Shown here: piece after piece, positions 3,475-34,927 of the stretch | How positions within the stretch are numbered: position 1 is the stretch's first letter | Layout: each line of letters opens with the position of its first letter | IMG/VR virus record: IMGVR_UViG_3300009506_001114 | Location: 1-37,205 of that record | Strand: one strand, 5' to 3' | DNA from: a virus | DNA: 37,205 nucleotides | Position numbers and translations under genes: made by a program | Notes under the pieces: generated by a model | Told to the model about the DNA's origin: nothing | The model's input: only the letters and a program-made list of their open reading frames with translations | Database searches by the model: none

Positions 3475-3741
3475 GAGTTCGTGGGAGTTGGGCACGGAGG
3501 CCCTTTGAGAATAGAGTGCTGGCGGCGGCGTGTGTGAAACGCAGGGTCCAAAGGCCACGGACAACATCGCATAGATCGTGCCATTACCCTAGCTGTTTTA
3601 TGGCCTACGCATAAGTTAGAGCGACAGATAAATTGTCTCTCGCAAGTACCCAGTAGGGCTAGAGCGATGTAGCAGGTAGCGGGTAAAGCCAATTCTGCCC
3701 GCCAGCACTTTTGACAACAACGCTCGATGAAAGGAGATACA

Positions 3742-3862: not shown

Positions 3863-4342
3863 ATGAAGTATCGTTGGATTCGTCAATTAGAAGGTATGCC
3901 CTACGTGTCGGCTGACGTCGTCGGGCCTGAGCTGAGAAAGCTCGAAGAGCAGAACGGCGGCACGCTGCTGCCGTCGACAGTCGTCAGAGCAGCCAGACCG
4001 AAGAAGAGCAAGCTGCACCAGTGCTTCGAGTGGAGCGACAAGAAAGCCGCTGAGGCGTTTCGGCAACGGCAGGCACGTGAGATACTGCGGAAGATCGCCG
4101 TCGAGTATGAAGAGCAAGAAGGCGAGCCGAAGACGATACGAGCCTTCGTCTCGATCAAGAGCGAAGACGGCGGTCGATACTATTGCCAGACCAGAAGGCT
4201 ACGTGACGACGCAGAGTTGCACGCGAACGTCATGGCGCAGATACTTCAGGAGCTGCTCGCGATCAAGGCGAAGTATGCCATCTATAAAATCGAGACTTTA
4301 CAGGCGATCTGGGACGCCATCGACGAAGCGGTGTTGCAGTGA
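3863..4342 (+). CDS. Conserved phage protein of unknown function
   Basis: A 159-residue soluble protein. Its centre, LHQCFEWSDKKAAEAFRQRQ followed by AREIL and a later RAFVSI strand, matches a type of unnamed phage protein I have seen repeatedly near recombination genes; no function is established for it that I know of. The sequence shows a basic linker, one long helix (about residues 58-80), a short beta segment (RAFVSIKSEDGGRYY) and a C-terminal helical pair (LHANVMAQILQELLAIKAKY). It starts at an ATG 5 bases after AAGGAG. It is followed directly by the GTYNN pentamer array, which begins five bases after its stop. A nucleic-acid-binding role would fit the neighbourhood but is a guess. Confidence 0.82.
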   Translation: MKYRWIRQLEGMPYVSADVVGPELRKLEEQNGGTLLPSTVVRAARPKKSKLHQCFEWSDKKAAEAFRQRQAREILRKIAVEYEEQEGEPKTIRAFVSIKSEDGGRYYCQTRRLRDDAELHANVMAQILQELLAIKAKYAIYKIETLQAIWDAIDEAVLQ

Positions 4343-4346
4343 GAAT

Positions 4347-4547
4347 GTTGGGATCCGTCCTGTTCTGTTCTGTTAGGATAGGTTAGGCTTTGTTGGGTTG
4401 TGTTAAGTCCGTTGCGTTGAGTCCCGTTGAGTTGGGTTCAGTTTTGTTATGTTGTGTTCCGTTCCGTTCCGTTGAGTCCGTTCCGTTGAGTCTCGTCCGT
4501 CTTGTTTTGTTCTATTGGGTTTGTTGGGTTAGGTCACGTTGAGTTCC
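4347..4547 (+). repeat. GTYNN pentamer array, 41 units
   Basis: The whole interval parses without remainder into 41 consecutive units. There are 37 of five bases and four of four bases (at 4407, 4476, 4495 and 4519). Twenty-nine units begin GTT, eight begin GTC, and only four deviate (GATCC, GATAG, GCTTT, ATTGG). The last two bases vary freely: GG, CC, CT, AG, TT, GT, AA, GC, GA, CA, AT. The strand is almost devoid of purine runs. It fills the gap between the stop of the previous gene and the GTG start of the next. This is not a simple satellite, because the units differ, and the period is not three, so it is not coding. Confidence 0.93.
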
Positions 4548-4554
4548 GAATGAA

Positions 4555-5163
4555 GTGATTGAAGTCACGATAGTGGGTGACACCCCATTGAAGGTCCATC
4601 GTATCGGCAAGAAGTACCAGCAGGAATTGGACGACAAGGACCACGGCAAGCCGAAGAAGAAGAACGTCGAGCGTGACTACGACTATGAGTTCCGAGACAG
4701 CCTGTACATCATCGACAAGAATGGGTGCCAGATAGATGGGCCAGTCCCAGAAAAACTGACTCCAAAGATGCAGTTCGGTTTTCCAAGCAGTTCGATTAAG
4801 AAGGCAATGGTCTACTCTGCACGACAGTTCGGCAAGGACGTGAAGATGTCTGAGCTGAAGGGTCGCTTCTTCGTCAACCAGTTCAGCCCATTCTTCGAGA
4901 TCAAGGGCACTCCGAAGATCGACAAGTTCATGCGACGTATCGGTGGATCGGGACCGGGCACCGGCACGCCCGACAATGGCATCAGAGCAAGCTTTGACGT
5001 TTGGTCTGCGACACTTGAGATACGCTTCCTCAAGAATCTCATCACCGCAGAGAGCGTACTGAATCTGCTTAGCGTCGCAGGCTTCTCAGTCGGCATCGGC
5101 GAGGACCGCCCCGACAAGACAGGCGGCACCTGCGGCATGTGGCATATCAAGGGCCAGAAGTAG
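4555..5163 (+). CDS. Conserved phage protein, possible RAMP-like fold
   Basis: A 202-residue protein starting at GTG, the only usable start: there is an in-frame stop at 4540-4542 and no internal ATG until mid-gene. No Shine-Dalgarno sequence is visible, because the pentamer array ends seven bases upstream. I recognise the middle and end (FGFPSSSIKKAMVYSARQFG, then FFVNQFSPFFEIKG, then LLSVAGFSVGIGEDRP and GTCGMWHI) as an unnamed protein type common in phages. The glycine-rich segment near the C-terminus (residues 173-198) recalls the G-rich loop of RAMP-fold proteins of CRISPR systems, but this is motif-level resemblance only. The partner gene at 5477 has a similar C-terminal G-rich loop, and the two recur together with pentamer arrays on both sides here. 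Function unknown; RNA or DNA binding is my inference. Confidence 0.8.
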   Translation: MIEVTIVGDTPLKVHRIGKKYQQELDDKDHGKPKKKNVERDYDYEFRDSLYIIDKNGCQIDGPVPEKLTPKMQFGFPSSSIKKAMVYSARQFGKDVKMSELKGRFFVNQFSPFFEIKGTPKIDKFMRRIGGSGPGTGTPDNGIRASFDVWSATLEIRFLKNLITAESVLNLLSVAGFSVGIGEDRPDKTGGTCGMWHIKGQK

Positions 5164-5476: not shown

Positions 5477-6124
5477 ATGAAAGTAAGACTGACGTTCACG
5501 GAGCCGTTGCTCGGCACCAGATCCGGCAACAAAGAGTTGGCGACTGAATACCAGATTGCCAAGCACCCAGACGTTAAGCTAGTCAAGGATGAGACAAGCA
5601 AGACGGTCGAAATGGAAAACACGGAAGCCGTACAGGACGAGATCGAAACGGTCGGAGAGATGATCGAGAAGGCGTCGACTCTGTTCGACCGGGACGAGAA
5701 CGGCGTACCGTTTCGATGGGACTACCAGTTCAAAGGCTTTTTCAAAGAAGCTGCTCTGGCGATGATCGAGACGGATACGATTAAGAAGGAAGACCTGCGG
5801 AAACTTCGGCTGACGCTGTACACGTACAAGCGCACCATCGGCACGCAGATATTCGTCAAGCCGAGGAAAATTCTGCTGATGTCACCGACCGAACCTATTA
5901 GTTGCGAGCGACCGCTTCGCGGCCAGACGATGAGAGGCGAGAGAATAGCCCTCGCCAAATCTGAAGAGCTTCCCATCGGCACGACGTGCGAGTTCCAAGT
6001 CATCTGCCTGAACAAGAAGCTCGAACCGTTTGTAGCGCAATGGCTCACGTATGGCGAGCTGTTCGGCTGCGGTCAGTGGCGAAGCTCTGGTAAGGGCCGG
6101 TTCACGTGGGAGCAGTTAGCATAG
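5477..6124 (+). CDS. Conserved phage protein, possible RAMP-like fold (partner)
   Basis: A 215-residue protein with a good start (AAGGAGACACAGAC then ATG). Recognisable blocks are MKVRLTFTEPLLGTRSGN at the N-terminus, PFRWDYQFKGFFKEAA in the middle, then CERPLRGQTMRGERIALAKS, LPIGTTCEFQV and the C-terminal WLTYGELFGCGQWRSSGKGR. I know this as a widespread unnamed phage protein. The alternating strands, the conserved Arg-rich PLRGQT...GERIALAKSEE segment and the final G-x-G-Q-W-R-S-x-G-K-G-R loop resemble RAMP-superfamily architecture, which is an inference from motif shape. It is separated from its partner at 4555 only by the small membrane gene, and the 645-base GC-grid array starts at its stop codon. 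The placement suggests the two proteins and the arrays belong together. Confidence 0.82.
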   Translation: MKVRLTFTEPLLGTRSGNKELATEYQIAKHPDVKLVKDETSKTVEMENTEAVQDEIETVGEMIEKASTLFDRDENGVPFRWDYQFKGFFKEAALAMIETDTIKKEDLRKLRLTLYTYKRTIGTQIFVKPRKILLMSPTEPISCERPLRGQTMRGERIALAKSEELPIGTTCEFQVICLNKKLEPFVAQWLTYGELFGCGQWRSSGKGRFTWEQLA

Positions 6125-6769
6125 GCGAAGCGGATCACTGCGAAGCGCCGCCAAGGCGAGGCGGATCTTTGCCTAGGCATCACTCAGCGACGCAACGGGC
6201 AAGGCGTGGCAGTTCTCAGCTCTGGCGCAGCCCCTCACGGCAATGGTCGTGCAATTCATGGCTCAGGCGAAGCGCAGGCAATGCGAATCAGGGCAAAAGC
6301 ATGGCGTGGCTGAGCGCGAGCAATACTGAGCAGCGCATAGGCAACGCTCAACAAGGCACTGGCAGCACAGGGCGACACTCGGCATAGGCGTAGCTGATCA
6401 GGGCTTTGGCAACGCGAGTCAGGGCGAAGGCGATGTGCAGCAAAGCACCGGTAAGGCAACGCCGAGCTTGGCTCAGGCTCTGTGGACAACGAAGCAAAGG
6501 CGGAGCGGGGCGCGTCTGGGCGATGGCGAAGCAGCGCGGAGCGCAGCGAAGGCGTGGCTCAGCCGCGCACCGGCCATGCTAGGCAGAGCCAGTCAGAGCA
6601 CTGGCGAGGCGCGGCCAGACAACGCGAGGGCATAGTACAGCAGAGCTTACCAGTGCTTTGGCATAGCGCAGCTAGGCGGTGGCGAGGCGAGGCTTGGCGT
6701 TCCACGGGCAAAGCCGCGCAAGGCAAGACAAAGGCATAGCTCCGCTATACGTCGCATAGGCGACGCGAT
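6125..6769 (+). repeat. GC-anchored pentamer array, about 645 bases
   Basis: A GC dinucleotide recurs on a five-base grid that occasionally steps by six, from the stop codon of the previous gene to about 6769. Examples of starts are 6125, 6130, 6140, 6145, 6150, 6156, 6161; 6299, 6304, 6309, 6314, 6320; and 6723, 6734, 6739, 6744, 6754, 6760, 6765. Empty grid slots are often TC, AC or CA. The other three bases vary (GCGAA, GCAAT, GCATG, GCTCA and so on), which gives roughly 120-125 non-identical units. Open frames exist through it on both strands but the period is five, not three, so I treat them as by-products. It fills what would otherwise be a 748-base gap and ends just before a terminator-like hairpin. 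Confidence 0.92.
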
Positions 6770-6794
6770 GCCCATCGCCGCGTCGGCATGCCGT

Positions 6795-6851
6795 AAGCGA
6801 CACTTCATGGATGATCGAGTATCGGCCACGGAGGGCCGGGTCGCTTTTTTT
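6795..6851 (+). terminator. Intrinsic terminator after the GC array
   Basis: AAGCGAC at 6795-6801 pairs with GTCGCTT at 6840-6846. Inside lies a second hairpin, CGGCC (6823-6827) with GGCCG (6834-6838) and a six-base loop, and a run of seven T ends at 6851. A perfect palindrome CGGCATGCCG sits just upstream at 6784-6793. The outer loop is long, so it may act as a partial terminator or a processed RNA end. The next gene starts 22 bases after the T-run. Confidence 0.6.
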
Positions 6852-9465: not shown

Positions 9466-10128
9466 CTAAGACCGAGACCACACTTGACGTATGTGCCCCC
9501 TTGGTACGCGCTCGCAATTCGTCAGCAGCTCACCGTACAGCAACTCAAAACCGTAAGCAGCCAAGTCTTCGTTGATCAGAACCTTGTGTCTGGAGTATTC
9601 CTCACTGGTAAAGCGGAAGCTCTTGCCGTGCATGCTCAGGTCGAGAACCTTGACCCGGCCTATGATGTCACGACTTGCCTTGAAGATTCGGAATTCCTCA
9701 CCCTCACAATTCAACAGCAGCATTTCCGGCTCGCCGTGTGCCCTACAAAATGCGGCAAAGCTCGTTGTCTGAACGATGACCGAACGGGCAGTTTCCTTGT
9801 TGTCAGCCAGTGCCTCAGCACATGCAGCCTGCGTCACTTCGCCGTCTTGCGTGTAGTATGTCAGGCGGTACGCGTCCACCTTGTCACTGATAGCTAATTC
9901 ATGCACGTGGTAATTTTGTAGCCTGTACCTCTGCACGGCCAGCCTGAGCGCCGCGCAGTTGGCGGGGTGCGGCTCTATGCCGCGCACGGTGACCTTGCGA
10001 AACATGGTTGCCAAAGCGAGTGACGTGCCGCCGGTGTAGGCCCCGACGTCGTATATCGAGCGCACTCCAAGACGCTTGATCTGAGCTGCGAGCAGCGTGC
10101 GAATGTAGGGATATTGGTCAACGCTCAC
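9466..10128 (-). CDS. FkbM-family methyltransferase
   Basis: A SAM-dependent methyltransferase of the FkbM type, usually an O-methyltransferase acting on sugars or secondary metabolites. Residues 24-34 (SIYDVGAYTGG) form the SAM-binding motif I loop, and VRGIEPHPANCAALRLAV is the acidic strand-2 motif. LLLNCEGEEFRIFKA and the downstream Asp/Glu-rich region complete the fold. I place the start at GTG 10128, because GGAGG lies seven bases upstream and the frame above it overlaps the neighbouring gene; GTGA overlaps the TGA of that gene by four bases. The result is 220 residues, normal for the family. It is the last gene of the late operon and of the glycan cassette, so the likely substrate is a sugar of the phage-made glycan. 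Confidence 0.86.
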   Translation of the reverse strand: MSVDQYPYIRTLLAAQIKRLGVRSIYDVGAYTGGTSLALATMFRKVTVRGIEPHPANCAALRLAVQRYRLQNYHVHELAISDKVDAYRLTYYTQDGEVTQAACAEALADNKETARSVIVQTTSFAAFCRAHGEPEMLLLNCEGEEFRIFKASRDIIGRVKVLDLSMHGKSFRFTSEEYSRHKVLINEDLAAYGFELLYGELLTNCERVPRGHIRQVWSRS

Positions 10129-10712
10129 TTTTGAGCCTCCACGTAAATGCTGTCTTTCGCGTACCGTTTGAAGTCCAGCCCCAAGAACTCCTTGCTGGCT
10201 TTGCCATACTTCACCAGCTTTGCGTCTGAGAACCCGGCACGCCCTAGATAGTACATCAGCGTCTCGGCGTCGAAGGCTGTGTTGTGTCCGCTGCGCCCGC
10301 CGCCTTTGGCTCTGCTCACCCACCACAGCATGTAATGGCCCAGCGCGGTAGGTGGGTAGTTGTGCTTGGCAACGGCTTTGCCCTGCTGGGCCGTTAGCCA
10401 ATCCATGTCGCCCATCATGTAACGCTGCGTTGGTATGCGTATATCCGGCACTACTACGCGCACCTTGCCGCCCGGCACCAGCGACCGCACCATTTCGCTG
10501 AGTACCCACGGCACAAGGTCTGGGTGTACGTGCTCAAGCGTGTGGCTGCAATAGACGTTATCTACGCTGTCATTCGCAAACGGTAACGGCTTGCCGCTGT
10601 TCAGGTCGAACACGTATTCCGGCCTGCCAGCGATGTCAAGAACCTGCCATCGCTTGCGCGTCACCGGGTGTATCTTGTCCCAGTTCTTCCAGCCGCCTAT
10701 ATTTACGTTCAT
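10125..10712 (-). CDS. Class I SAM methyltransferase
   Basis: A 195-residue methyltransferase of the type-11 class found in polysaccharide gene clusters. WQVLDIAGRPEYVFDLNSGK resembles the glycan-cluster variant that starts without a full motif I, and PFANDSVDNVYCSHTLEHVH plus LVPGGKVRVVVPD are the characteristic strand-4/strand-5 motifs. The C-terminal half carries HYMLWWVS and SGHNTAFDAETLMYYLGRAG. The ATG at 10712 has GGAGACATACA before it. The gene sits inside an overlapping chain: it overlaps the nucleotidyltransferase by 77 bases and the FkbM gene by four. Its role is likely methylation of a sugar or sugar-linked group. Confidence 0.86.
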   Translation of the reverse strand: MNVNIGGWKNWDKIHPVTRKRWQVLDIAGRPEYVFDLNSGKPLPFANDSVDNVYCSHTLEHVHPDLVPWVLSEMVRSLVPGGKVRVVVPDIRIPTQRYMMGDMDWLTAQQGKAVAKHNYPPTALGHYMLWWVSRAKGGGRSGHNTAFDAETLMYYLGRAGFSDAKLVKYGKASKEFLGLDFKRYAKDSIYVEAQK

Positions 10713-11391
10713 TGTATGTCTCCAATAATTCCGGTGTGCCTATACTCCACACGTCATTGACCACAAAGGGCAGTATGATCTTGCCCTCAGTGATGAGGTA
10801 ATTGTACGTTGGCGCAAGGTAGAACTCACCTCTGAACCTGTCGTCCGCTTGAATCATTCGCTCGGCAGCCCGCACGAAGTCACTGCCGCGTCTCCACCAA
10901 TAAACGCCAACGGTTGCAAGGTTGCTGATGACTTGCTTCTCGGCAACCTCGTTGATTTCACCGCCCGGCCCCAGCCCAACATAGCTCCAGTACGGTTCAT
11001 TCTTGATACAGCAGAGGATTCCAGCGTCAGCCGTGCGACGCCAGTAGGCTAACGCGTTGTCCATGTAGCGCGGCTGGAATACTAACTGGTCGCAGTTGGC
11101 CACCAGTAACTCAGCGTCCGTATCAATCAGGTCTTTGGCCGTCAGTATGGTGCAGGCCGCACCTTCGGTTTCCCCGGTGACTAATACGTGGGCATACGCG
11201 TTCCGCAGTATCTCGGCTTCCATGTCGCTGCGGCATATGATCGTCCAACCACCGCTGCCCTGCCACTTCAGATTGACCATGACGCGCCTGTACATTGGTA
11301 TGCCGTCAACCAGTATCATGGGTTTCGGCACTGTGTACCCGGCTTGCTTAAAGCGGGTACCGCTACCCGCCATCGGCATTATCAGATTCAT
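10636..11391 (-). CDS. Sugar-1-phosphate nucleotidyltransferase
   Basis: A nucleotidyl transferase of the NTP_transferase fold that couples a sugar-1-phosphate or related molecule to a nucleotide. The GxGxR-type loop PMAGSGTRFKQAG (residues 6-18), KPMILVDGIPMYRRVM and the metal-binding LLVANCDQLVF (Asp95-Gln96 region) are visible, and FYLAPTYNYLITEGK with VNDVWSIGTPELL is the usual C-terminal core of the family. The length of 251 is normal. AAAGGAG precedes the ATG at 11391. The start overlaps the end of the GDPD-like gene by 29 bases. It may supply an activated sugar different from the CMP-activated one made by the NeuA-like protein. Confidence 0.87.
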   Translation of the reverse strand: MNLIMPMAGSGTRFKQAGYTVPKPMILVDGIPMYRRVMVNLKWQGSGGWTIICRSDMEAEILRNAYAHVLVTGETEGAACTILTAKDLIDTDAELLVANCDQLVFQPRYMDNALAYWRRTADAGILCCIKNEPYWSYVGLGPGGEINEVAEKQVISNLATVGVYWWRRGSDFVRAAERMIQADDRFRGEFYLAPTYNYLITEGKIILPFVVNDVWSIGTPELLETYNERKYRRLEELGQDTPGDAQAMAGS

Positions 11392-11815
11392 TGAGTGACT
11401 CCTTTATGATTTGCACGTAATCGCTACACACACCCAAGCAGTTGATCGGCAGGGTTGTCAGTTGCGCGTCTACTACGATTGAGCCCGGCCCCGCAGGCTC
11501 AAAGCCCCAGATGGTGCCGTTGCTGGTCAGGGTGAATCGGTCGCCTGCGTGCCAGAAACAGTTTGCACCAGATCGCCTGAGCACCATAAGCGCTGGCATA
11601 TTCTTGCAGTGCAGCCACAACGGATTGTTGCGTAACCATTGCAGGTCAACCGGGTATTGCGGCTCGTCGTGGCCCAGCATGAAACGCCCTAAGAACCACA
11701 CGTCAACTTCTGCATGGTACCCGGCGTTCAGCACCTCAGCGACATAGTCGGGCCGGTTTTCCTGTGATGGATTAGGCCCGGCCACGTTGCCCCTGTGTGC
11801 TATCAATACTGTCAT
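11363..11815 (-). CDS. Glycerophosphodiester phosphodiesterase-like protein
   Basis: LIAHRGNVAGPNPSQENRPD and AEVDVWFLGRFMLGHDEPQY show the GDPD signature: a His-Arg pair, then Glu/Asp in the second strand and a second His in GHDE. WLHCKNMPALMVL fits the third core strand. The family normally needs about 230-250 residues; this one has 150, so the barrel is partial. Short relatives of this kind occur in capsule and glycan clusters, with unknown function. I place the start at ATG 11815, which overlaps the stop of the upstream gene as ATGA, rather than at the upstream ATG 11842. It could cleave or transfer a phosphodiester-linked glycan substituent, but this is inference. Confidence 0.7.
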   Translation of the reverse strand: MTVLIAHRGNVAGPNPSQENRPDYVAEVLNAGYHAEVDVWFLGRFMLGHDEPQYPVDLQWLRNNPLWLHCKNMPALMVLRRSGANCFWHAGDRFTLTSNGTIWGFEPAGPGSIVVDAQLTTLPINCLGVCSDYVQIIKESLNESDNADGG

Positions 11816-12465
11816 CGGTCTTTCCACCTGTATAGATTCCATTCACTACTGGCCCAACCCCAGAAGTCAACAATGTCACGTGGCTCCCCAATCTGCCGCC
11901 TGACACGTGCGCTGAGCGCCTTGTGCGGGTTGTTGGAGCTCTGCATAAACCAATAGTCAGGCTGGGCACATATAAGCTTACGAATGGTAGTGAGCGAGCC
12001 CGCCACGAATACGTCGTGCAGCCAACGCCGCTTGATGGAAAAGTCGCCTTCAGCTTTGCTGCCAAGGTGCGCAAGGGTCAAGTGATTCTCCAGCATTGGC
12101 AGCGGCAACTGCTGCATAAGCAACAGGTCGAATCGCGACAGTACCACGTAGTCATACGCGCCGCGTATCAATTTGAAGCATTCCCGCCTGCTATACCACT
12201 GGCTCCGCAGGCAGAACCGTGGCCCCGGCTGGCCGAAGTCAATCTGCGGCTCAAACATGGCCGCCTTGGGCAAATAGGCCGCACACAAGCCACATGCCCG
12301 GTCGACAGTCCAACTGTGAATATAAACGTCAGCTTCGTAGGGCTGTATGAAATATTCATCCCACGCTCTTGCGCACTCAACGTAATTGATAAGCTCGCCC
12401 TTGCCGTTCTTGCCGCCCATGCCGCCCACGATTCCGGCCAAGCATAATGCTACTCGCTGTGGCAT
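11812..12465 (-). CDS. Putative glycosyltransferase-like protein
   Basis: A 217-residue soluble protein. MPQRVALCLAGIVGGMGG, then EADVYIHSWTVDRACG and YDYVVLSRFDLLLMQQLPLP resemble a glycan-cluster protein type with a GT-A-like beginning (RVALCLSG) and a putative DxD-like region in the RFDLLL strand. I do not know its donor or acceptor. Its gene overlaps the FkbM-like gene upstream by 16 bases and the GDPD-like gene downstream by four. Position inside the cassette is the main support for a sugar-related role. Confidence 0.7.
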   Translation of the reverse strand: MPQRVALCLAGIVGGMGGKNGKGELINYVECARAWDEYFIQPYEADVYIHSWTVDRACGLCAAYLPKAAMFEPQIDFGQPGPRFCLRSQWYSRRECFKLIRGAYDYVVLSRFDLLLMQQLPLPMLENHLTLAHLGSKAEGDFSIKRRWLHDVFVAGSLTTIRKLICAQPDYWFMQSSNNPHKALSARVRRQIGEPRDIVDFWGWASSEWNLYRWKDR

Positions 12466-13058
12466 ATTTCACCGTCCGTTTCGGTTATGCGTTCTAGTAG
12501 ATACTTGTGATATTTGCGGTGCAGGCATCGTGTGATACGATGCGTGCGTTTCAGCTTGTCAATGCAGCGCTCAGTATCATCCTCAGTGAAGTCGTTGCCG
12601 GGCAGCCAGTGGTGGAACTGCACGAAAATCATTCGACACTTGGCCAGTACGTCGCTGGGTGTGCCGTCCAGTATTTCGTATTCGCTGCCTTCGCAGTTCA
12701 GCAAGAGCTTGCTCAGCTTGTCGTGCAAGACGATCATCTTAGCTATTGCGCCCGTCAAACTTACCACGTTTACAGGACAACAGCCGGGTGCGGATGACTC
12801 AACGATGCGCCCTTTTGTCCCGGCTCCGGTCAGATAGGCGGTGCGATCATCAGCGCCAACGGCAGATAAACTGATACGTAACCAAGACATATCAACTGCC
12901 GCAAGTCTATAGTCCGTTGCGGCTCTGACATTTGGTTCGTAGGCATATACGGCCAATGGCTCGCTTTTGTGAAGATCACTCAAGTCACTAGCTCGCAGAA
13001 AGCCCACGCTGATCGCGGTGTCACCGGCTTCAAACGGCACGCCCTGTATCTTGGTCAT
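12450..13058 (-). CDS. FkbM-like methyltransferase, second copy
   Basis: A 202-residue protein with features of FkbM-type methyltransferases: DTAISVGFLRASDLSDL replaces the usual motif I and is degenerate, LAVYAYEPNVRAATDY supplies the acidic strand-2 motif, and LSKLLLNCEGSEYEILDGTP matches the LLxxCEG-E core seen in the FkbM gene at 9466. The weak motif I raises the question of whether it still binds SAM. AGGAGATACCT precedes the ATG at 13058, and ATGA overlaps the neuB stop. It probably methylates a sugar of the same pathway or has lost activity. Confidence 0.72.
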   Translation of the reverse strand: MTKIQGVPFEAGDTAISVGFLRASDLSDLHKSEPLAVYAYEPNVRAATDYRLAAVDMSWLRISLSAVGADDRTAYLTGAGTKGRIVESSAPGCCPVNVVSLTGAIAKMIVLHDKLSKLLLNCEGSEYEILDGTPSDVLAKCRMIFVQFHHWLPGNDFTEDDTERCIDKLKRTHRITRCLHRKYHKYLLERITETDGEICHSE

Positions 13059-13882
13059 AGGTATCTCCTGAGCTTGTTGCGAGCAAGTATCTCAGAGCCG
13101 TACACCGTCCATTGGCCGGTGCCTAAGCCCCTTTCAATGCTCCGGCAGTGCTTGACTATGCTAGTTGCGCCGGGCAACTCAATGCTGGCGGCCTGGTCGG
13201 ATCCGTACATTGCCCGGTCAAGTGTCAGGTGAAACTCGATCATCTCTGCCCCGAGTGCAGCCGCCGCAACGCAGAATGTTATGCCGGGACTGTGGTTCGA
13301 GAAGCCGATCTTGAATCGCTTGAAGTCAGGGTCTTGCTTCAGCTCGGTAATAAACCGCAGGTTCATTTGCGCGGCAGGTGCAGGATAAGTGCTTGTACAT
13401 GCCAGCACGTATTCCACAGCACTGCCTAGCACGTCGATGGCACGCATGACCTCCGGACGAGTGCTCATGCCAGTGCTGAGTATGACGGGTCGGCGTAACA
13501 GCTTGACCGCTTCCAGCAGCTCCATATCAGTAATGCACGGGCTGGCAATCTTGACCCACGGTATGTCATAGTGGCTCAAGAATGTTGCCGAGTCTACGTC
13601 CCACGGCGAGGCGAACCACGGTGTGCCCATCAGGCGGCAGTAGTCGTCGATCTCGTCGTATTCTTCCTTGTCAAACTCAAGGCCGAGCTTCTGTGCGCGG
13701 TTGGTAGTACCCCACGGTGACTCGCGGGGCTTGTCGAGTTCCTCCTGCGTGTATACCGTATCAATCGTTCTCTTTTGAAACTTGACCGCATCGCACCCGG
13801 CCAGCTTCGCGGCGCTGATGAGTTGCTGGGCCGTATTGATGTCGCCGTTATGGTTGATTCCTATCTCTGCTACTATTACCAT
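13055..13882 (-). CDS. neuB: N-acetylneuraminate synthase (NeuB)-type enzyme, no SAF domain
   Basis: A TIM-barrel synthase that condenses phosphoenolpyruvate with an amino-sugar aldose to give a nonulosonic acid (sialic, legionaminic or pseudaminic type). The conserved opening IVAEIGINHNGDINTA, then CDAVKFQKRTIDTVYT, PWFASPWDVDS, WVKIASPCITDMELLEAV and ILSTGMSTRPEVMRAI are NeuB signatures, followed by FSNHSPGI and the metal or substrate region MIEFHLTLDRAMYGSDQAAS. I start at ATG 13882 (GAGAGGAATGTAAA upstream), giving 275 residues. Typical NeuB proteins are about 340-350 residues with a C-terminal SAF (antifreeze-like) domain; the end here is RNKLRRYL, so that domain is absent. The exact product sugar cannot be read from sequence. 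Confidence 0.92.
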   Translation of the reverse strand: MVIVAEIGINHNGDINTAQQLISAAKLAGCDAVKFQKRTIDTVYTQEELDKPRESPWGTTNRAQKLGLEFDKEEYDEIDDYCRLMGTPWFASPWDVDSATFLSHYDIPWVKIASPCITDMELLEAVKLLRRPVILSTGMSTRPEVMRAIDVLGSAVEYVLACTSTYPAPAAQMNLRFITELKQDPDFKRFKIGFSNHSPGITFCVAAAALGAEMIEFHLTLDRAMYGSDQAASIELPGATSIVKHCRSIERGLGTGQWTVYGSEILARNKLRRYL

Positions 13883-13883
13883 T

Positions 13884-14672
13884 TTACATTCCTCTCGGGA
13901 TACCCCAATAGTCACAAAGCTTACAGACCGGCAGGTGTATTCTGCTGCCGTTCAGGTGCCATTGTATTCTGACTTGGCGCTTCGGGCCGTTCCAAATTTC
14001 CGCAAGTGTTTCATCATGAATGTCACCTATTACCCCTTCAGCAGCCGGGTCGAATCGCACGCACGGAAACACCCTACCATAGCGGTCTATCGTAAGGTGG
14101 TGGAGCAGGTCAAGGCACACGCCCGTCTCGGGTAGCGTAACTGGAGCCTCGTAATCGAAGCTGCCCATCGGCGAATGGAGTATCCGTTTTGCTACCAGAC
14201 CCATCTCAGCATAAGGCCCGGTGTCGACTGTGCCCAAGCAGCGGAACACGACCAGCGGCTTGCGGTCACCCTTCAAGGCCATGAAACGCCTTATGATATC
14301 AAGCTGTTCATTGGCTTGCTGGTCGTCCTGAATGATTGAAATTGCCATCGTGTCAAGGTTGCCGATTATGTCGTCGGCACGCTCCATCAACAGCAGGCCG
14401 TTGGTGTTGAACGATGTCAGCCGATGTGTACCAAGCAGCATGATCGCAGCTTTCAAAGATTCGTACAGCAGCGGCTCGCCGTTGTTGTGCAGTTGTACGG
14501 TAATACCATAGGGCAGTTGCTCGTGGATTTTCTCGACAAGCTCCCACGCCATGTCGCCGTATGTCACATTATACTTGCGCGAATGTTCGATCTTGCGTCG
14601 TCCGCACATCCAGCAGCTTTTGTTACACCGGCTGGTGAGTTCGATATTCACATTGCATAAACCGTTCATCAT
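13884..14672 (-). CDS. Radical SAM/SPASM enzyme
   Basis: Cys16-x3-Cys20-x2-Cys23 in LTSRCNKSCWMCGRRKIE is the radical SAM cluster motif. A second Cys set (ETGVCLDLLHH, VFPCVRFDPAAE, LPVCKLCDYWG) at the C-terminus fits a SPASM or twitch auxiliary cluster domain. GITVQLHNNGEPLL carries the GGE-like motif with Glu. Size (262) fits a short SPASM protein. Such enzymes perform radical chemistry such as epimerisation, dehydration or cross-linking on peptides or sugars; in glycan clusters they are usually taken to modify sugar intermediates. It sits between the SDR and the NeuB gene, with an ATGA overlap on one side, so it is probably co-expressed with them. Confidence 0.88.
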   Translation of the reverse strand: MMNGLCNVNIELTSRCNKSCWMCGRRKIEHSRKYNVTYGDMAWELVEKIHEQLPYGITVQLHNNGEPLLYESLKAAIMLLGTHRLTSFNTNGLLLMERADDIIGNLDTMAISIIQDDQQANEQLDIIRRFMALKGDRKPLVVFRCLGTVDTGPYAEMGLVAKRILHSPMGSFDYEAPVTLPETGVCLDLLHHLTIDRYGRVFPCVRFDPAAEGVIGDIHDETLAEIWNGPKRQVRIQWHLNGSRIHLPVCKLCDYWGIPRGM

Positions 14673-15466
14673 GTCACTGTCCAGCCTCCGTCAACGAGCA
14701 CCGCCTGCCCGGTCATAAATTTCGTCGTCGCCAGCATGATGAGTGGTCCCGCCAAGTCCTCAGGGGTGCCGGTACGTCCAACCACCGTTCGTCTTCGCAG
14801 TTCGTCAATGAATGGCTGATGGTCGGCTGATACCTTGTTCGCGTCAGGAAACGGACCGGGACACAGCGCGTTGACTACGATCCCGTAAGACCCAAGGAAT
14901 GACGCAGCGTATCGCGTGAAGCCAAGCAGACCAGCCTTCATCGTGCTGTACGTCACCGGGTTGAGATATGCCTTGTCAACCTCGTACAGCGCCGGGTCTG
15001 GTGCGACCACGCTGTACATAGAGCCTATGTTGATGATTGAGCCGCTGCGACGCGCTTTCATTTCACGGCCTACGATCTGCGTTGCGGCGATGGTCCAACT
15101 AAATGCCTTAAAGGCGGCGTCCCAAGTGTCGTCAGTACAGTTAAGTATCCTCCCACCCGACCAGTTAAACCCCGTCATTTCAGTCATGTCATAGGCGTTG
15201 TTGATAAGAACGTCGATGTCGTTAAGCGACACCGCCCTGTGCAGCGCCTTGAGGTATTCGTTGCGGTTGGCGTTGTCGCAGATATAAACGTCGGCCCCAC
15301 GGTCTAGTTTCAACACATGCCGCAATACTTTTTCCGTTCGACTGAATACAACCAGCCTGCACCCGCAGTCATGGAATATGTCGACCATGTGCCTACCAAG
15401 GTATCCGCTGGCTCCGGTAATGAGCACCGTCTTGTCTTTCAGTTGAAATATATCAGTCAACATCAT
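14669..15466 (-). CDS. Short-chain dehydrogenase/reductase
   Basis: A 265-residue SDR. The Rossmann loop TGASGYLG is at residues 17-24, DVLINNAY at about 85-92, IINIGSMYSVV with the catalytic Ser region at 144-153, and Tyr173-x3-Lys177 in PVTYSTMKAG. NAGTPEDLAG-type and GQAVLVDGGWTVT tail features confirm a full-length classical SDR. Reaction: NAD(P)-dependent oxidation or reduction of a sugar or nucleotide-sugar hydroxyl or keto group. It overlaps the end of the NeuA-like gene by 14 bases and the radical SAM gene by four. It most likely helps make the sugar precursor of the nonulosonic acid pathway. Confidence 0.9.
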   Translation of the reverse strand: MMLTDIFQLKDKTVLITGASGYLGRHMVDIFHDCGCRLVVFSRTEKVLRHVLKLDRGADVYICDNANRNEYLKALHRAVSLNDIDVLINNAYDMTEMTGFNWSGGRILNCTDDTWDAAFKAFSWTIAATQIVGREMKARRSGSIINIGSMYSVVAPDPALYEVDKAYLNPVTYSTMKAGLLGFTRYAASFLGSYGIVVNALCPGPFPDANKVSADHQPFIDELRRRTVVGRTGTPEDLAGPLIMLATTKFMTGQAVLVDGGWTVT

Positions 15467-16208
15467 ACTTGCTCGCGATCAGCCTTCTTACATTGGCCAA
15501 GTCATGCTTCGTGTCAATTTGCAAGCTCCGCCAGAACGGTACCCGGTGCATGCTGACCTTACCACCTATACGGCATCGGCGCTGACGGAACATCTCAGTA
15601 CGGAAGATGTAAAAGCCACCGCTCTCTACAATGGCAGTGACTCGTCGGCTTTGTCGCCTGCCCCGCTTGCGTGGGTCGTAGTTAAGCGGCTCGGGCCGCT
15701 TGGTATCTACTCTCCACAGTAACATGTCTGTGTGAGCAACCACGCTGAATACGCTGTCAAAGCCGCCGGTCAACAGAGTCTCTAATCCCGACTTTACGCT
15801 TTCGGCGGTCAGCATTGGGCTGGTACACTGCACCATGACTACAACATCGCAGTCAACCACCTTGATAAAGTGGTCGATGGCTTGTTCAGTCGTGGCGTAG
15901 TCGCCGGATATCTCATCTGGCCGATTGATGATCGCCGCCCCGTATTTGCTGGCGGTTGTGGCGATGTTGGGGTCGTCGGTGCTGACATACACAGCCGGTA
16001 TGCCCGCCGCCTGCAACAGGAGCACTGAGTTGCCCACCAGCGGCAAGCCGCCCACCACCTGAAGATTCTTCCCCTTGATACCTTTTGAGCCGCCACGAGC
16101 GGGCACAAGGCCCACAATACGGACGTTTGCCCGGCGTTTACGGGCTATGCGAGACTTGACCTTGTTGGCAGCCGCTCGTGCCTTGCGTGTTGAGTTCTCA
16201 ATGATCAT
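15453..16208 (-). CDS. neuA: CMP-nonulosonic acid synthetase (NeuA)-like cytidylyltransferase
   Basis: An acylneuraminate cytidylyltransferase: it activates a nonulosonic acid with CTP to a CMP-sugar. The nucleotide-binding motif VGLVPARGGSKGIKGKN is at residues 32-48, followed by VYVSTDDPNIATTA, DEISGDYATTEQAIDHFI and VMVQCTSPMLTAESV. The Glu-Ser-Gly-Gly-Phe-Tyr region (AIVESGGFYIFRTE) and DTKHDLANVRRL also fit. I start at ATG 16208 (251 residues) rather than at 16280. That leaves a strange 30-residue basic leader (RKARAAANKVKSRIARKRRA) that other NeuA proteins lack; a downstream GTG at V32 is the alternative. Together with the NeuB gene it gives a minimal synthesis-and-activation pair. Confidence 0.9.
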   Translation of the reverse strand: MIIENSTRKARAAANKVKSRIARKRRANVRIVGLVPARGGSKGIKGKNLQVVGGLPLVGNSVLLLQAAGIPAVYVSTDDPNIATTASKYGAAIINRPDEISGDYATTEQAIDHFIKVVDCDVVVMVQCTSPMLTAESVKSGLETLLTGGFDSVFSVVAHTDMLLWRVDTKRPEPLNYDPRKRGRRQSRRVTAIVESGGFYIFRTEMFRQRRCRIGGKVSMHRVPFWRSLQIDTKHDLANVRRLIASKYDVD

Positions 16209-16968
16209 ATCGCAGCCGTGCCTCAATACCCTCATTGTACCTGCGCTCGACGTCCTGAATGATCTGCTTCTTGACGCCAACCTTGTGCTCTCTTTTGAAA
16301 GCTGACCGGCTCATGCGGTCGGGGTGTACCCGGTACACCGCGACATAGTCCTCGATATGTACTGGTATGTGGCCGAAGCGTATTACCCGCCGCCACATTT
16401 CATTGTCGCTTGAGAACCTGAGCGTGTCGTCGTACAGACCAAGCTGCTTGTGTAGCTCACGCCTCACCATCACCGATTGAGCGTGGACGAGCCGGTGGTG
16501 GTACCGTTTGTCCAAGTCCCAGCCCTCAAGCTTCAGGCGTTTGCGAAACATTCGCTTCCACTGACGTGACTCGTCACTGAGCCGCGTGCCGTTGAGCACC
16601 TGTACTTCACCGTGGCACCACAGCTTGTCGCTCGGTGCCAGTGCCTTGTAGCGCAGGGCCAGTGAATCGGGTGTCAGCATATCGTCGGCGTCGATCATAA
16701 TGATGTAATTGCCGCGAGACTCGCGGATGCCGAGGTTCTTGGCATAGCTGTAACCGCGATTCTTGCGGCAATGGATGAGGTTTACCTTGCTAAAATACTC
16801 CCCGCCCAACACAGGTGCCATCGCTCTTTGCGGATCGTCCGTCGAGCAGTCGTCTACTATGATCCACTCCCAGCAGGGCCATGTCTGTGCGAGCACGCTC
16901 TTTGCCAAGTCCGGCAGATAGTGGGCGTAGTTATAGAGCGTCGTCACGATAGATATGAGTTCGTGCAT
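16198..16968 (-). CDS. GT2-family glycosyltransferase
   Basis: A classical GT-A enzyme: ISIVTTLYNYAHYLPDLAKS opens the fold, EWIIVDDCSTDDPQ (Asp39-Asp40) binds the nucleotide, KNRGYSYAKNLGIRESRG is the typical NxG...A.N.G segment, and DADD at 93-96 is the DxD metal motif. FSSDNEMWRRVIRFG carries the base region. The length of 256 is normal. Inverting transfer from an activated sugar is expected; the donor and acceptor are unknown. GGAGGGAGT lies just before the ATG. It overlaps the GT4 gene by 25 bases and the NeuA-like gene by 11. Confidence 0.91.
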   Translation of the reverse strand: MHELISIVTTLYNYAHYLPDLAKSVLAQTWPCWEWIIVDDCSTDDPQRAMAPVLGGEYFSKVNLIHCRKNRGYSYAKNLGIRESRGNYIIMIDADDMLTPDSLALRYKALAPSDKLWCHGEVQVLNGTRLSDESRQWKRMFRKRLKLEGWDLDKRYHHRLVHAQSVMVRRELHKQLGLYDDTLRFSSDNEMWRRVIRFGHIPVHIEDYVAVYRVHPDRMSRSAFKREHKVGVKKQIIQDVERRYNEGIEARLRYDH

Positions 16969-17927
16969 ACTCCCTCCATGAATCTTAAATACTCTGTTGC
17001 TACGTTGGCGATGTTGACGTGATCGTTGCGCACGACGGGCCGTTCCTTTGCACTCGCCAGTCTTATCATAGCATCAGCCACCATGTGCCTGTCAATCGCT
17101 GGCGGGTGGTACAGGTCGACTGGCTCGCAATCGTACGGTTCGTCGATAGCCAGCACTTCGCCCGCTCCGCTGGGGCCGACGATCTCCCAAGTACCTCCCA
17201 CGTTGTTGCAGATCACAGGCACACCGGCGCACAGAGCCTCAACCACCGAGTTCGGGCAGGCGTCGAACCAGCACAGGTGAATCGACGCCGTGGCCGCCTT
17301 GAGTATGGGCATGAGCAGGTTCTGTGGCAGGCTGCCGACATATTCAATGTCTCGGTGAGCGAAGTAGTTACTGGCTTCACCTGCCGGAATGCCGCTCCTT
17401 GATCCGTCACCGGCTACAATGAGCATGCACTTTATGACGCCGTTTGCAATCAGGAATGATTCAATGATGTCACGTAATCGCTTGTGGGGCCGCCACTTGC
17501 TGAAAGCAATGAAGACGTGCTTGTGCTGGAAGCTGGCGGGCTTCACTTCGTCATAAACTGACGGAAGACTGCCGTTGAAGATTACCCTGCTCGGACACTT
17601 GGGCTCGCCAAGGTATTTGTTGCACATACGACGCGCAAAATTGCTTTGATAAATTACCCCATCGGCGTGCTTTATAGCGTCACGCATACCACGGTTCTTC
17701 TGCCGCCAGTTACGAGCGGTGTCGTGCCACACGCCGTCGAATCGGACGATCTTATACGTGCTATGCCAGTGCTTTATGCTTATCACGTTCAGGGATACGT
17801 CTGTCTTGCCTGATGACACCACGTTGACCTTGCGCTGACGGAGCTCGTCGGCGAGCCGCCGCATGAAAAGGGCCTTGCCGCTTATCAGGTTGTATGGGGT
17901 GTTTGCAGTTTCAATCCAAACTTTCAT
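16944..17927 (-). CDS. GT4-family glycosyltransferase
   Basis: A GT-B fold glycosyltransferase of the GT4 group. The opening MKVWIETANTPYNLISGKAL, the acceptor-side VIYQSNFARRMCNKYLG and the donor-side HVFIAFSKWRPHKRL fit the family. The E-x7-E-type region is CPNSVVEALCAGVPVICNNV followed by GGTWEIVGPSGAGEV. A TTG six bases upstream could be read as start, but the ATG at 17927 has AAGGG upstream and gives the natural N-terminus, 327 residues. GT4 enzymes commonly add sugars from NDP donors onto lipid-linked or protein-linked glycans. Its N-terminus overlaps the GT42-like gene by 17 bases. The product is cytoplasmic or inner-face. Confidence 0.88.
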   Translation of the reverse strand: MKVWIETANTPYNLISGKALFMRRLADELRQRKVNVVSSGKTDVSLNVISIKHWHSTYKIVRFDGVWHDTARNWRQKNRGMRDAIKHADGVIYQSNFARRMCNKYLGEPKCPSRVIFNGSLPSVYDEVKPASFQHKHVFIAFSKWRPHKRLRDIIESFLIANGVIKCMLIVAGDGSRSGIPAGEASNYFAHRDIEYVGSLPQNLLMPILKAATASIHLCWFDACPNSVVEALCAGVPVICNNVGGTWEIVGPSGAGEVLAIDEPYDCEPVDLYHPPAIDRHMVADAMIRLASAKERPVVRNDHVNIANVATEYLRFMEGVCTNSYLS

Positions 17928-18672
17928 ATTCAAGCCCTTTGCCCTTGCACTGGAGAAATGGATTTGGATGTGCCAGCACTATGCGCCTCCCTTGCGGCCT
18001 CATGTGTCGGCGGTCGAAGTCGATAAGGAAGTCACGCGCCCTGCTGGTGGCGTGAGGCAGGTTGGGGTCTTTGGCCTCGTGAGCCTTGTTCGTCTGGTGA
18101 TGAACCTCACCGTAGATTGGGTCGCCGCCCGTCCAAAAGTAGTACGAGTTGTGCATGTCCACCCCTGCAAGCACAACTTTCTCATACCCGCACTGGTACA
18201 TCATGTCAAGCACGGTGGTCAGTGACATATCGTAACTCTTGGTAGGTATGCCGGGCCGGATGCGGTAGTGCGCGTTGAACCGCTTCATCTGACGTTTGGG
18301 ATCGCGCATGAACACCTCGTACTCGTATTTCAATGCGCCTGCAAATGTCACCTTATGTAGCGGCACCTTTTCACCATTGACCCCGATCCGCTTGCCATGC
18401 TGGAAGATAAACTTTGTGCCCTTGTACCTGTTTTGTTTTTCGATCAGTCTTCGCTGGATCAGCCTGTAGTTGTAACGCTTGACCTCTACGTGATAGAAGT
18501 CCGGCACTGCGAAGGGATGGTATACCCAGTTGTTCAACGCCCACACGTCGTGATAATAAAACAGCTTCGACCACTGAAACAACGTCAGGCGGTTGATGCT
18601 CGTTCCGCTGCCGAGCAGTACGGCCCAATCTTTTTGTCGCTCGGTTTTCAGACTGGCGAAGTCCTTGAGCAT
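17911..18672 (-). CDS. Putative sugar transferase resembling GT42/DUF115 fold
   Basis: A 253-residue protein whose layout resembles GT42 sialyltransferases such as Campylobacter CstII. The nucleotide loop is WAVLLGSGTSINRLTL (residues 16-31), then a strand-helix alternation, then CGYEKVVLAGVDMHNSYYFW (161-180), which matches the GYKEIYLxGIDF region. A downstream His207 lies in NLPHATSRARDF, a candidate for the catalytic His, and AHPNPFLQ near the end matches the CPNSLL-like segment. The match is by shape and spacing; I could not align it. In context with NeuA and NeuB it is the best candidate for transferring a CMP-nonulosonic acid. It is co-encoded with a second member at 18648. Confidence 0.65.
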   Translation of the reverse strand: MLKDFASLKTERQKDWAVLLGSGTSINRLTLFQWSKLFYYHDVWALNNWVYHPFAVPDFYHVEVKRYNYRLIQRRLIEKQNRYKGTKFIFQHGKRIGVNGEKVPLHKVTFAGALKYEYEVFMRDPKRQMKRFNAHYRIRPGIPTKSYDMSLTTVLDMMYQCGYEKVVLAGVDMHNSYYFWTGGDPIYGEVHHQTNKAHEAKDPNLPHATSRARDFLIDFDRRHMRPQGRRIVLAHPNPFLQCKGKGLEYESLD

Positions 18673-19886
18673 GCTGGAACTCCCGCGCAGGGGTCAGGCC
18701 CCTTGAGGTTCATAAGTTTCTTCCACTTGCGGCTGCCCTGAAAGTGTTCTATCACTATCTCGTTACCCATAGCAGGGAAATCGAATATACGGCAGTAGCT
18801 CAGCGGAAGCTCTTTGAAGTCACACTTCGTGCGATTCAGCTCCTGCATGAGCAGGTCTGGATTCCTACCGTGTGGGCGCTTTGCTATACGTTCCAGCCAG
18901 CCCTCTATTACCTCACGGCAGCGCGGCGTATTGCCGAAGTACATGGTGCCGCCCATCAGCTCGCCGCCGGGACGCAGCTTCGAATCTTTCCAAATCGCAG
19001 CCGCCACATCGGCCTTGAACTTTGGCCGCTCAAAGAAATCAGGGCGCTTCTGTATGATCGCATCGGCGTCAACGCGGCAGATTGCTCGTGGTTCAAACTT
19101 GCCGAGAGCCTTCTGCACCTGCGTTGCGCAGTAGTTGCTGTTTGCCCGCCACGTGCCCAAGCTGTAGATCCCTTCCAGCCAATAATCCAAGCCCCATCGG
19201 CACAGTGACGCCTCAAGGTTTTTGACTTCCTGTTCGTATGGCGTATCTACGGTGTAGTGGCTGACGAACACCGGCATACGCGGTACCAGCCTTTGCCACG
19301 GCACGAATTTTATATGCCCGTTGAGCGGGCTGATCGGTGAGCAACTGTACACGTTGATGCCGTAGTCAGTGCAGCGGTGCACGCCTGCAATGAAGTGCCT
19401 CAGAAACTGATCGTATGGACTTGCGTTGCCGCCGGGCTCGTAGCAATACTTTCTGCCGTTGACCGTTTGCAGGTCGACGCCCATCAGGTAGATGTCTTTG
19501 TAGCCAAGTTGCACCGCAAATTGAAGGGCGCAGAACCCCGTATTCTTACCGGTGGCAAAATCTGGCCCGCTCGGTACCAGTGAGCCGTCCCACCGGGTAG
19601 GCCGCACCCACGTGTCGTACTGCGGAACGTACTCCTTTACAGCCCCCCATCGCGGGTGTTCTTCAGGGTTGATCACGACCACCTTTTTTGTGGTAGTGGG
19701 CATGCCGAACCAATTCTGCGTCACGGCGTTGCGTATGACGCCTGAATCCGCAGTCAGGAAGTAGGTAGGCTCAGGCAGTTGCCTGCCCATGTAGTTGACG
19801 GCAATCGTGTCCTCATGGCGAAGCCAGCCAAGCGGTACATCGCTCATGCTTGGCCCGCCGCACACAACAAACGCTCTTTTCTTCAT
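18648..19886 (-). CDS. DUF115/GT42-like domain fused to a second transferase domain
   Basis: A 412-residue two-part protein. Residues 1-200 look DUF115- or GT42-like: FVVCGGPSMSDVPLGWLR nucleotide loop, TYFLTADSGV, GKNTGFCALQFAVQLGYKDI with YLMGVDLQ, YDQFLRHFIAGVHRC and CSPISPLNG. After about 205 a new fold starts: PVFVSHYTVDTPYEQEVKN, WRANSNYCATQVQKALGKFE and AICRVDADAIIQKRPDFFE, with a DAD motif at 273-275 like nucleotide-diphospho-sugar transferases, then GGELMGGTMYFGNTPRCREV. Fusion of an unusual transferase domain to a second GT-A-like one is notable. The DUF115 family includes Maf-type flagellin nonulosonate transferases of Campylobacter and Helicobacter; this function here is inference. 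Confidence 0.7.
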   Translation of the reverse strand: MKKRAFVVCGGPSMSDVPLGWLRHEDTIAVNYMGRQLPEPTYFLTADSGVIRNAVTQNWFGMPTTTKKVVVINPEEHPRWGAVKEYVPQYDTWVRPTRWDGSLVPSGPDFATGKNTGFCALQFAVQLGYKDIYLMGVDLQTVNGRKYCYEPGGNASPYDQFLRHFIAGVHRCTDYGINVYSCSPISPLNGHIKFVPWQRLVPRMPVFVSHYTVDTPYEQEVKNLEASLCRWGLDYWLEGIYSLGTWRANSNYCATQVQKALGKFEPRAICRVDADAIIQKRPDFFERPKFKADVAAAIWKDSKLRPGGELMGGTMYFGNTPRCREVIEGWLERIAKRPHGRNPDLLMQELNRTKCDFKELPLSYCRIFDFPAMGNEIVIEHFQGSRKWKKLMNLKGPDPCAGVPACSRTSPV

Positions 19887-34000: not shown

Positions 34001-34927
34001 AACATCCGTTTGACCGGCAACCGTTTTCGGGACAGTCAAATCACTGGTTGTGCTTACAGCAATATCACTCTGGCCGGCCAAACTGACTATTCGGCCTAAC
34101 GCGGCAGCCGTCGTGATGGATATGTCACTTTGTGCCAGTAGCTGGGGCTGGGCGTCTATTGCACCCGTGACTGACATACTTACGTCACTCTGACCTGCAA
34201 TGGTGCGGGCGACACCTAATGCGCTCGTCGTGGATATGGCTATGGCTGATATTCCGGCCAAGGGAACCGCCGCAGCAGCTTCCTGCCATGCGCCCATCAG
34301 GATTGCGCTATCATCAGAACCGTCAGCCGTCCAGACGTGAGATTCGTCGCCAGTACCCGATTGTATGCTATAGCCTACGGCTGATTGATATGATCCCTCG
34401 TCGTAACTGTACTCGCCGGGAGTGCCATCATCTATGAGATGCGTGCCGGGTGAAAATCCAGTATGAGCATCCTTTTCACCGTGACCATTGACTGATACGC
34501 ATACGGAACCGTCTGGGACGTTGGCGATGGTGGCGGTTGGCGTGGCGGAATCGTTGTTGTCCGAGTCCGAGCCAAAAAATGAGGCGTCTGCGCCTGCATT
34601 GGTGTAATCCGTAATCGAATAGCGGATCGTCGCTGTTGCCGTATTGGGGATGCTGACGTTGCGAGACACGCCATCATCTGGGTCTAAAAAGTACCACATC
34701 TCAACATTGGTTTCTGTGGCACCTATAATCCCATTCACCTGTTGCATGGCTGTGGGTGTGCCGCCCGAAGCATAAGTGGGTGCCCCTCCACCGCGAGAGG
34801 TGCTGCCACCTATGACCATAGCTAACACAAGCAGCTTGCTGTTCGTCCCTGCCGTAAACGCCACATCTATAGGCGATGCAGACGAGCTGCCTGTTTGATG
34901 GCCCGCACTGTTATACGCAAACGCCAT
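31088..34927 (-). CDS. Giant 1279-residue repeat protein with two inserted beta-sandwich domains
   Basis: Domain order: residues 1-220 a beta-rich domain ending DSAILMGAWQEA; 221-343 six 20-residue repeats; 344-582 a LamG/concanavalin-type lectin domain (VLWYRLEDNASDSKVTDEKG, SVSFALWIKLNDGQGAYKAI, TYDEIGIFPKALTAAEVAAL); 588-845 about 12 more repeats; 846-995 a second inserted beta domain (LRFDFTFGEEIAVPTTNLRL, QIQIRIEQALPGNPIHFFNF); 996-1260 about 12 more repeats; and a C-terminal WLIDPNLTIINSVMGRT. The consensus repeat is roughly V/I-AGQSDVAxTTTGxLxVxRx. No signal peptide. Very likely a tail fibre or virion surface protein in the tail gene block, but its exact place is unknown. GGAG before the ATG at 34927. 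Confidence 0.84.
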   Translation of the reverse strand: MAFAYNSAGHQTGSSSASPIDVAFTAGTNSKLLVLAMVIGGSTSRGGGAPTYASGGTPTAMQQVNGIIGATETNVEMWYFLDPDDGVSRNVSIPNTATATIRYSITDYTNAGADASFFGSDSDNNDSATPTATIANVPDGSVCVSVNGHGEKDAHTGFSPGTHLIDDGTPGEYSYDEGSYQSAVGYSIQSGTGDESHVWTADGSDDSAILMGAWQEAAAAVPLAGISAIAISTTSALGVARTIAGQSDVSMSVTGAIDAQPQLLAQSDISITTAAALGRIVSLAGQSDIAVSTTSDLTVPKTVAGQTDVAVTTTGALSVARTVAGQSDIAISTTASLSVTRSLSSNYLPASPVLWYRLEDNASDSKVTDEKGVYDGTIVNDQNNYSSEQYTGSGKIDGGFSLGTSPDRINIGSSLQTILRGSVSFALWIKLNDGQGAYKAICGVGGTGEDAIVLEANSDGTVGFAYKAGGNVAPAITNSAVFPNGATGWYHLAGVADSTIGGVGGILIYVNGSSVALNPGAPGDTSGITFSEYTQADNVLIGCRNFNSSPASYCPGTYDEIGIFPKALTAAEVAALATKYPTSGRGGPRIETTATGALTVTTGVAGQSDVALSTTGDLSVTRGVAGQSDVTLTTVSVLTVTGQVALAGQSDVSLATAGVLEVARNIAGQADVALSTAGVLSVVRTIAGQSDVALTTAGNVSVTTSIAGQSDITITVSAAVSVNRGITGQSDVTTTISGVLSLAVSLSAQSDVAIAATADVSIQGQVALQGTSAVAVTTTAALNVALATQGQSSVRLTATGAAGVARAISGQSDIAITTTATLGLAVPLAAQADLAINTAADLSILIPWDHPSSYTLTAGTLDGGTLPDVYDIGGGSLILGETAGTPGLRFDFTFGEEIAVPTTNLRLTIVGHYEGNIAHLLKLQQYNYNTTNWDNVTADSTDFPSTTVDGTYSFSLFDDADYISGGQIQIRIEQALPGNPIHFFNFDFIGLTANALIGQSSITVTTTGQASVALGLTGQSDIAITVSGQAQVARTVNGATALTVAATGQLSSSVALTSAADVLITTTSTLSVQGQIDLAGASTVSLATTASLSLVRSLVGQADIQVSTTADLTVTAAVVDLAGVSAVTTTATGAVVLAQQLSGASNVTIGTITTPSMSVGVAGVVGLQTAATALLGLQRALAGAITVTTTSTGSLALIVPIAGQSAITITASGVIRAARALTGSVNVSVGLDGSQVVQWALAAASGVQISTAAALGQRVKPAWLIDPNLTIINSVMGRT
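31142..34267 (-). repeat. About 30 copies of a 20-residue (60-base) repeat
   Basis: Copies begin with (V/I/L)AGQ(S/T/A)D(V/I), for example at residues 243, 283, 303 and 323, spaced exactly 20 residues. Each has a Thr/Ser-rich middle (AVTTTGAL, AISTTASL) and a SVAR-like end. Two sandwich domains interrupt the series (about 33182-33898 and 31943-32392). The regular strand-turn period suggests a beta-solenoid or similar rod. The Ser/Thr content would permit O-glycosylation. Three related copies are at the C-terminus of the tail tip gene. Confidence 0.85.

Follow-up and report, generated by a model that had tools for sequence, protein, structure and literature searches.

A degenerate array with a two-level architecture of five- and six-nucleotide units, linked to and strand-concordant with a gene whose product is predicted to adopt a RAMP fold and is distantly homologous to the Vipr family, is present in the viral genome studied here (the window, i.e., the whole stretch analyzed, 37,205 nt, positions 1 to 37,205 of IMG/VR record IMGVR_UViG_3300009506_001114). 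The array (array 2) is probably the template of a guide RNA for that protein (gp5477), and the pair a VIPR-type (Viral Interference Programmable Repeat) inter-phage interference module in a variant with a GC-type code. The features concerned are as follows.

Positions 3863 to 4342, plus strand: gp3863 (phrog_15946), a candidate vipr-accessory (vap) gene that recurs with gp4555 homologues.
Positions 4343 to 4550, plus strand: array 1, a run of GTTNN pentads (period 4.90) interrupted after 12 and 13 pentads by 4-nt units (GTCC); by homology and architecture a VIPR guide array.
Positions 4555 to 5163, plus strand: gp4555, 202 aa, a RAMP protein whose family profile matches SUSP1 Vipr (PDB 36pp).
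Positions 5477 to 6124, plus strand: gp5477, 215 aa, RAMP (Cas7-like) with GCGQWRSSGKGRF as its C-terminal glycine-rich loop; predicted to partner array 2.
Positions 6126 to 6775 (645-base stretch 6125 to 6769), plus strand: array 2, made up of about 122 units of 5 nt (NNNGC) or 6 nt (NNNGGC), in superunits of 21-31 nt that each start with a 6-nt unit; predicted to be a vrRNA-like array of guide RNA.
Positions about 6795 to 6848 (stem 6822 to 6839), plus strand: hairpin resembling an intrinsic terminator, then T7; may close the gp5477-array transcription unit (inferred, on weak evidence).

The 111 GC dinucleotides in the 645 nt of array 2 lie on a regular grid. Pairs of GC at lag 5 were observed 48 times, where 300 dinucleotide-preserving shuffles predict 19.0 (z 7.5), the excess recurred at lags 10, 16, 21 and 26 (z 6.4, 6.6, 11.2 and 9.5, respectively), and pairs were depleted at lags 3 (z -2.1) and 4 (z -5.0). 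The periodogram peaked at 5.26. The segment was parsed into 90 five-mers and 32 six-mers, 122 units altogether, with six-mers spaced by 21 nt in 14 cases and by 26 nt in nine. An earlier note, made without database searches, had described a noncoding array of 120-125 units with GC at steps of 5 or 6 bases, and had named the lack of a lag-5 excess over lags 3 and 4, or evidence of coding, as grounds for refutation; when the lag check was run the grid held, and the noncoding reading was supported by the presence of 3-6 stops in each of the three forward frames. The TC or AC reported there in empty slots also held. These slots are not random but fall mostly in the penultimate unit of each superunit, where the G anchor was kept in only 12 of 27 units versus 88 of 95 elsewhere; this loss of the anchor is marked in array 2 of the window and weak across the whole family. 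The claimed start at a stop codon was confirmed (TAG of gp5477, 6122-6124). As for the claimed end before a terminator, the hairpin and T7 are present, but the evidence is weak, and terminator-like matches in the region were not above chance (four found, 3.3 expected). Inferred from sequence alone, the gene downstream is likely to start at 6873 rather than at 6768. RNA structure, for which probing had been proposed, received no computational support: folding of array 2 was no better than that of shuffles (z -0.48), a structured 3' tail at its end was not indicated (fold z -0.58; no Rfam match), and comparison of sense and antisense folding was uninformative. The note gave no mechanism, and the link to RAMP proteins and VIPR goes beyond it.

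The same architecture was found in related arrays, which were assigned to class A (GC-type arrays with the gp5477 family) or class B (GTT-type arrays with the gp4555 family). In 74 class-A arrays (38 kb), 81% of the units were NNNGC and 16% AANGGC. Because the same arrays served to train the unit model, the unit frequencies are descriptive; the lag and periodogram tests are independent of that model. Six-mers of class A recur every 5-7 units (gaps of 31, 26 and 36 nt), within an overall range of 4-7 pentads; against a geometric null, 320 spacings of six units were counted where 76 were expected, and 27 spacings of one unit where 186 were expected. In class B, the GTTNN units are interrupted at intervals of about 49-69 nt, i.e., about 10-13 pentads, by a 4-nt unit, which is GGCG in L274 and L219. 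Because regular 6-nt or 4-nt units interrupt the pentads, the mean periods are 5.17 (31/6) and 4.92 (59/12), respectively. The consensus can be written as G-C(A/T)-R/NN for array 2 and GTT/NN for array 1. Between relatives, substitution was 0.077 at the G anchor (position 4) versus 0.106-0.146 at positions 1-3, and the GG of the six-mer changed least (0.011-0.022). Unit positions 2-3 were near maximal entropy across arrays (1.97 bits), and in the few alignable pairs they evolved no faster than position 5.

The linkage between gene and array was examined in gp5477 homologues drawn from IMG/VR, INPHARED and GTDB genomes. The search beside homologues of this gene, suggested in the earlier note, was strongly positive, with a degenerate array touching the homologue in 71 of 76 distinct loci including the window (period 5.0-5.3, median 5.155); the gene-array pair is thus shared by about 70 further viruses and prophages. 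The array was downstream of the gene in 47 of the 71 loci, upstream in 12 and on both sides in 12, and only eight arrays lay away from the gene in 860 kb of gp5477-family loci. Most homologues showed a period peak of 5.06-5.20 in the 400 nt downstream. The grid held over phage GC contents of about 0.4 to 0.7 (40% to 69%). The 58 GTDB loci came mostly from MAGs of Clostridia and Coriobacteria, with Phycisphaerae, Zixibacteria, Saccharibacteria and others also represented. No adjacent array was called in three fully flanked class-A loci (L028, L034 and L042), of which L028 is a Lokiarchaeota MAG. Across the class-A loci no conserved or constant vap gene was found, nor a structured 3' tail. All 83 class-A arrays scored were purine-rich on the strand of the gene; class-B arrays had G>C on the gene's strand in 28 of 28 cases, with GTT commoner there in 26 of 28. 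This strand concordance fits an RNA function.

Scans by DNA pattern, blind to genes, served as the reverse test. GC arrays found in this way (L079, L101, L119, L128, L148, L169, L176 and L187) adjoin gp5477 homologues, and degenerate GTT arrays, with a period mostly of 4.90-4.96, adjoin gp4555 homologues, often together with gp3863 homologues. Loci with the GTT pattern and neither gene were mostly near-perfect microsatellites; in L195, L208, L229, L246, L254 and relatives, which are related phages, a near-perfect (GTTAA)n microsatellite lies beside a hairpin without a RAMP gene. One degenerate GTT array without a RAMP gene (L196) lies where the retrieved sequence stops, and one GC-type array without a detected gene (L179) is within a stretch of 3.4 kb. 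Most matches to the DNA patterns sit in no array, which we take to be chance. In L080 and L095 a gp4555 homologue is paired with a GC-type array, and therefore the array code is not strictly bound to the protein family. In these two loci and in L106, gp4555-family genes are accompanied by GC-rich arrays whose period is 4.92-5.13; such arrays could possibly represent intermediate codes between the classes.

AF2 modeled gp5477 with modest confidence (pLDDT 63, pTM 0.60), and the predicted fold is that of a RAMP protein with an RRM core and G-loop. Foldseek matched the model to type VII Cas7 (E 3.3e-4, prob 1.00), and a sequence profile from 55 homologues also hit type VII Cas7 (E 3.1e-4). A viral homologue (41% identity, E 2.9e-15) carries the annotation 'Cas system-associated RAMP superfamily protein'. 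Profile search gave no direct match to SUSP1 Vipr (36pp). The gp5477 family was aligned by hhalign with the gp4555/Vipr family (prob 89%, E 2.4e-6), and gp5477 is thus in all likelihood a distant relative of Vipr, indirectly via the gp4555 family. PADLOC returned no matches for nine neighboring proteins, and neither CRISPR repeats near gp5477 and array 2 nor other adjoining cas genes were found.

Array 1 was confirmed (GTT lag-5 z 15.2). The gp4555 family profile hit 36pp, the Vipr of phage SUSP1, with E=3.5e-35 in hmmsearch, and the AF2 model of gp4555 (pTM 0.82) matched Csm3 in Foldseek (E 9.8e-6). By Vipr homology and architecture, array 1 and gp4555 very likely form a VIPR system. Homologues of gp3863 (11 sequences including the window) all lie within gp4555-family loci and are present in about half of these. 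The earlier claim that the two arrays are separate classes held, with different anchors and two RAMP families. That they share the same period failed as an exact claim (5.26 vs 4.90), the difference being caused by regular 6-nt units in array 2 and 4-nt units in array 1 within the 5-nt grid. The phage therefore appears to carry two VIPR-like systems with different codes, array 2 and gp5477 counting only as a probable variant; no other record examined had both classes, in searches without a positive control. Elsewhere in the window, a minus-strand block of glycan genes was observed at 9466-19886 (FkbM methyltransferase, glycosyltransferases, a sialyltransferase-like protein and a FabG-like reductase), together with a 1279-aa ORF without PHROG match at 31088-34927 (minus strand) and a 266-nt intergenic region at 3475-3740 without 5-nt periodicity.

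In VIPR, a phage RAMP protein works with vrRNAs of 9-16 YNNGG pentads, whose NN dinucleotides read dsDNA with a 1-nt skip and repress competing phages and satellites, as shown for SUSP1 (PMC13142463, bioRxiv 2026.04.26.720920). Seven types are described with the consensus GGY/NN 'or a related consensus', staggered arrays are mentioned (PMC13142463), and VIPR has been proposed as an ancestor of CRISPR. Both systems of the window resemble it in having a minimal phage RAMP gene flanked by long intergenic stretches of degenerate pentads, in which one part is conserved and NN varies. The resemblance is closer for array 1 and gp4555, through Vipr homology and about 10-13 pentads per delimiter against the published 9-16. 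Array 2, however, has the anchor G-C instead of GGY and does not meet the GGY/NN consensus, receives a 6-nt unit every 4-7 pentads so that its superunits comprise 4-7 units rather than 9-16, was found with neither a vap partner nor a 3' tail, and is accompanied by merely distant kin of Vipr. It is treated here as a variant working like VIPR and not as a proven member, and it may possibly be among the seven published types. The backbone proteins of class 1 CRISPR-Cas (Csm3, type VII Cas7) form oligomers contacting guide RNA every sixth nucleotide (PMC11127173). They share with gp5477 the RAMP fold, the glycine-rich loop and regular spacing on guide RNA, whereas at the gp5477 locus CRISPR repeats and further cas genes are absent, the spacing is 5 instead of 6, and the array is continuous, without spacers. 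RNA anti-CRISPRs (Racr) are phage RNAs that nucleate a Cas7 filament, mimic host CRISPR repeats and use host Cas proteins (PMC10651486); the predicted array RNA would likewise be phage-encoded with a Cas7-like partner, but the window phage encodes its own RAMP protein and no repeat mimic was seen.

In the proposed mechanism, gp5477 and array 2 would be co-transcribed from the plus strand, and gp5477 subunits would polymerize on the array RNA, one per pentad, each holding the conserved G-C while the variable bases, mainly those at unit positions 2-3, point outward. The outward bases may then read a double-stranded DNA target non-contiguously, as in SUSP1 VIPR, and the RNP would repress genes of competing phages or satellites; the AANGGC units every 4-7 pentads would partition the array RNA into 21-36-nt words. 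The evidence for transcription and RNA binding is indirect, from homology and strand concordance, and target reading and repression are likewise inferences. No excess of the 1-nt skip over other skips was found in 6 Mb of phage DNA (both strands), two decoded array-1 guides had no match in IMG/VR, a class-A guide had one match in 308 genomes versus two for reversed controls, and the variable positions matched the remaining genome of the window no better than permuted ones. Since the databases were small or only exact patterns were searched, these empty results neither support nor refute the guide role.

The alternative that survives best is that gp5477 binds the array RNA for autoregulation or as a structural ribonucleoprotein, the variable bases carrying no target information. 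Strict linkage and strand concordance would suit any RNA partner, no targets were found, and positions 2-3 evolve no faster than position 5 in the few pairs that could be aligned. Nevertheless, we consider it unlikely, as the related Vipr system has a similar architecture with a demonstrated guide (PMC13142463) and the near-maximal entropy of positions 2-3 is not required by pure protein recognition. A second alternative is a cis-acting DNA site for the phage RecT annealase with its 5-bp footprint. RecT is encoded 3.4 kb upstream, and cryo-EM of the Listeria phage homologue LiRecT showed 5 bp per monomer with a wedge at every fifth base pair (PMC9772228). However, RecT was found in just five of 36 array-bearing phage records and Erf above the cut-off in two, while the RAMP gene was nearly constant (the records may be fragments); the period is not 5.0 but 5.16 or 4.92, reset regularly by 6- or 4-nt units; and the two array classes correspond to two RAMP families. 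A search for RecT relatives in IMG/VR returned nothing. The footprint was rejected by the co-occurrence counts and is very improbable. A half-turn of B-DNA as the source of the 5.16-5.26 period was rejected too, as the excess over 5 comes from discrete, regularly spaced 6-nt units and the period of the second class is 4.92. That the array is a protein-coding or selfish repeat whose period of 5 is incidental is suggested only by long chance ORFs in some arrays (e.g., cluster 52), which arise because GC-rich pentads avoid stops, and is practically ruled out by the stop codons present in each forward frame of array 2, a period that is not a multiple of 3, non-identical units on a grid kept across GC contents, and the failure of Tandem Repeats Finder to report any array at 6125-6769.

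Within the preferred guide reading, a bolder version would take gp5477 and the GC arrays as a VIPR type outside the published seven, with its own reading rule (AANGGC word boundaries, words of 4-7 pentads), so that the phage would have two VIPR systems with different codes; on balance we lean slightly against it. A widespread sister family with a G-C anchor instead of GGY and a regular 6-nt reset would mean that the VIPR guide code is evolvable. The period of 5.16 or 4.92 is a simple computable signature for such presumed guides in phages, without the need of homology searches, and the reading rule becomes testable over many gut prophages.
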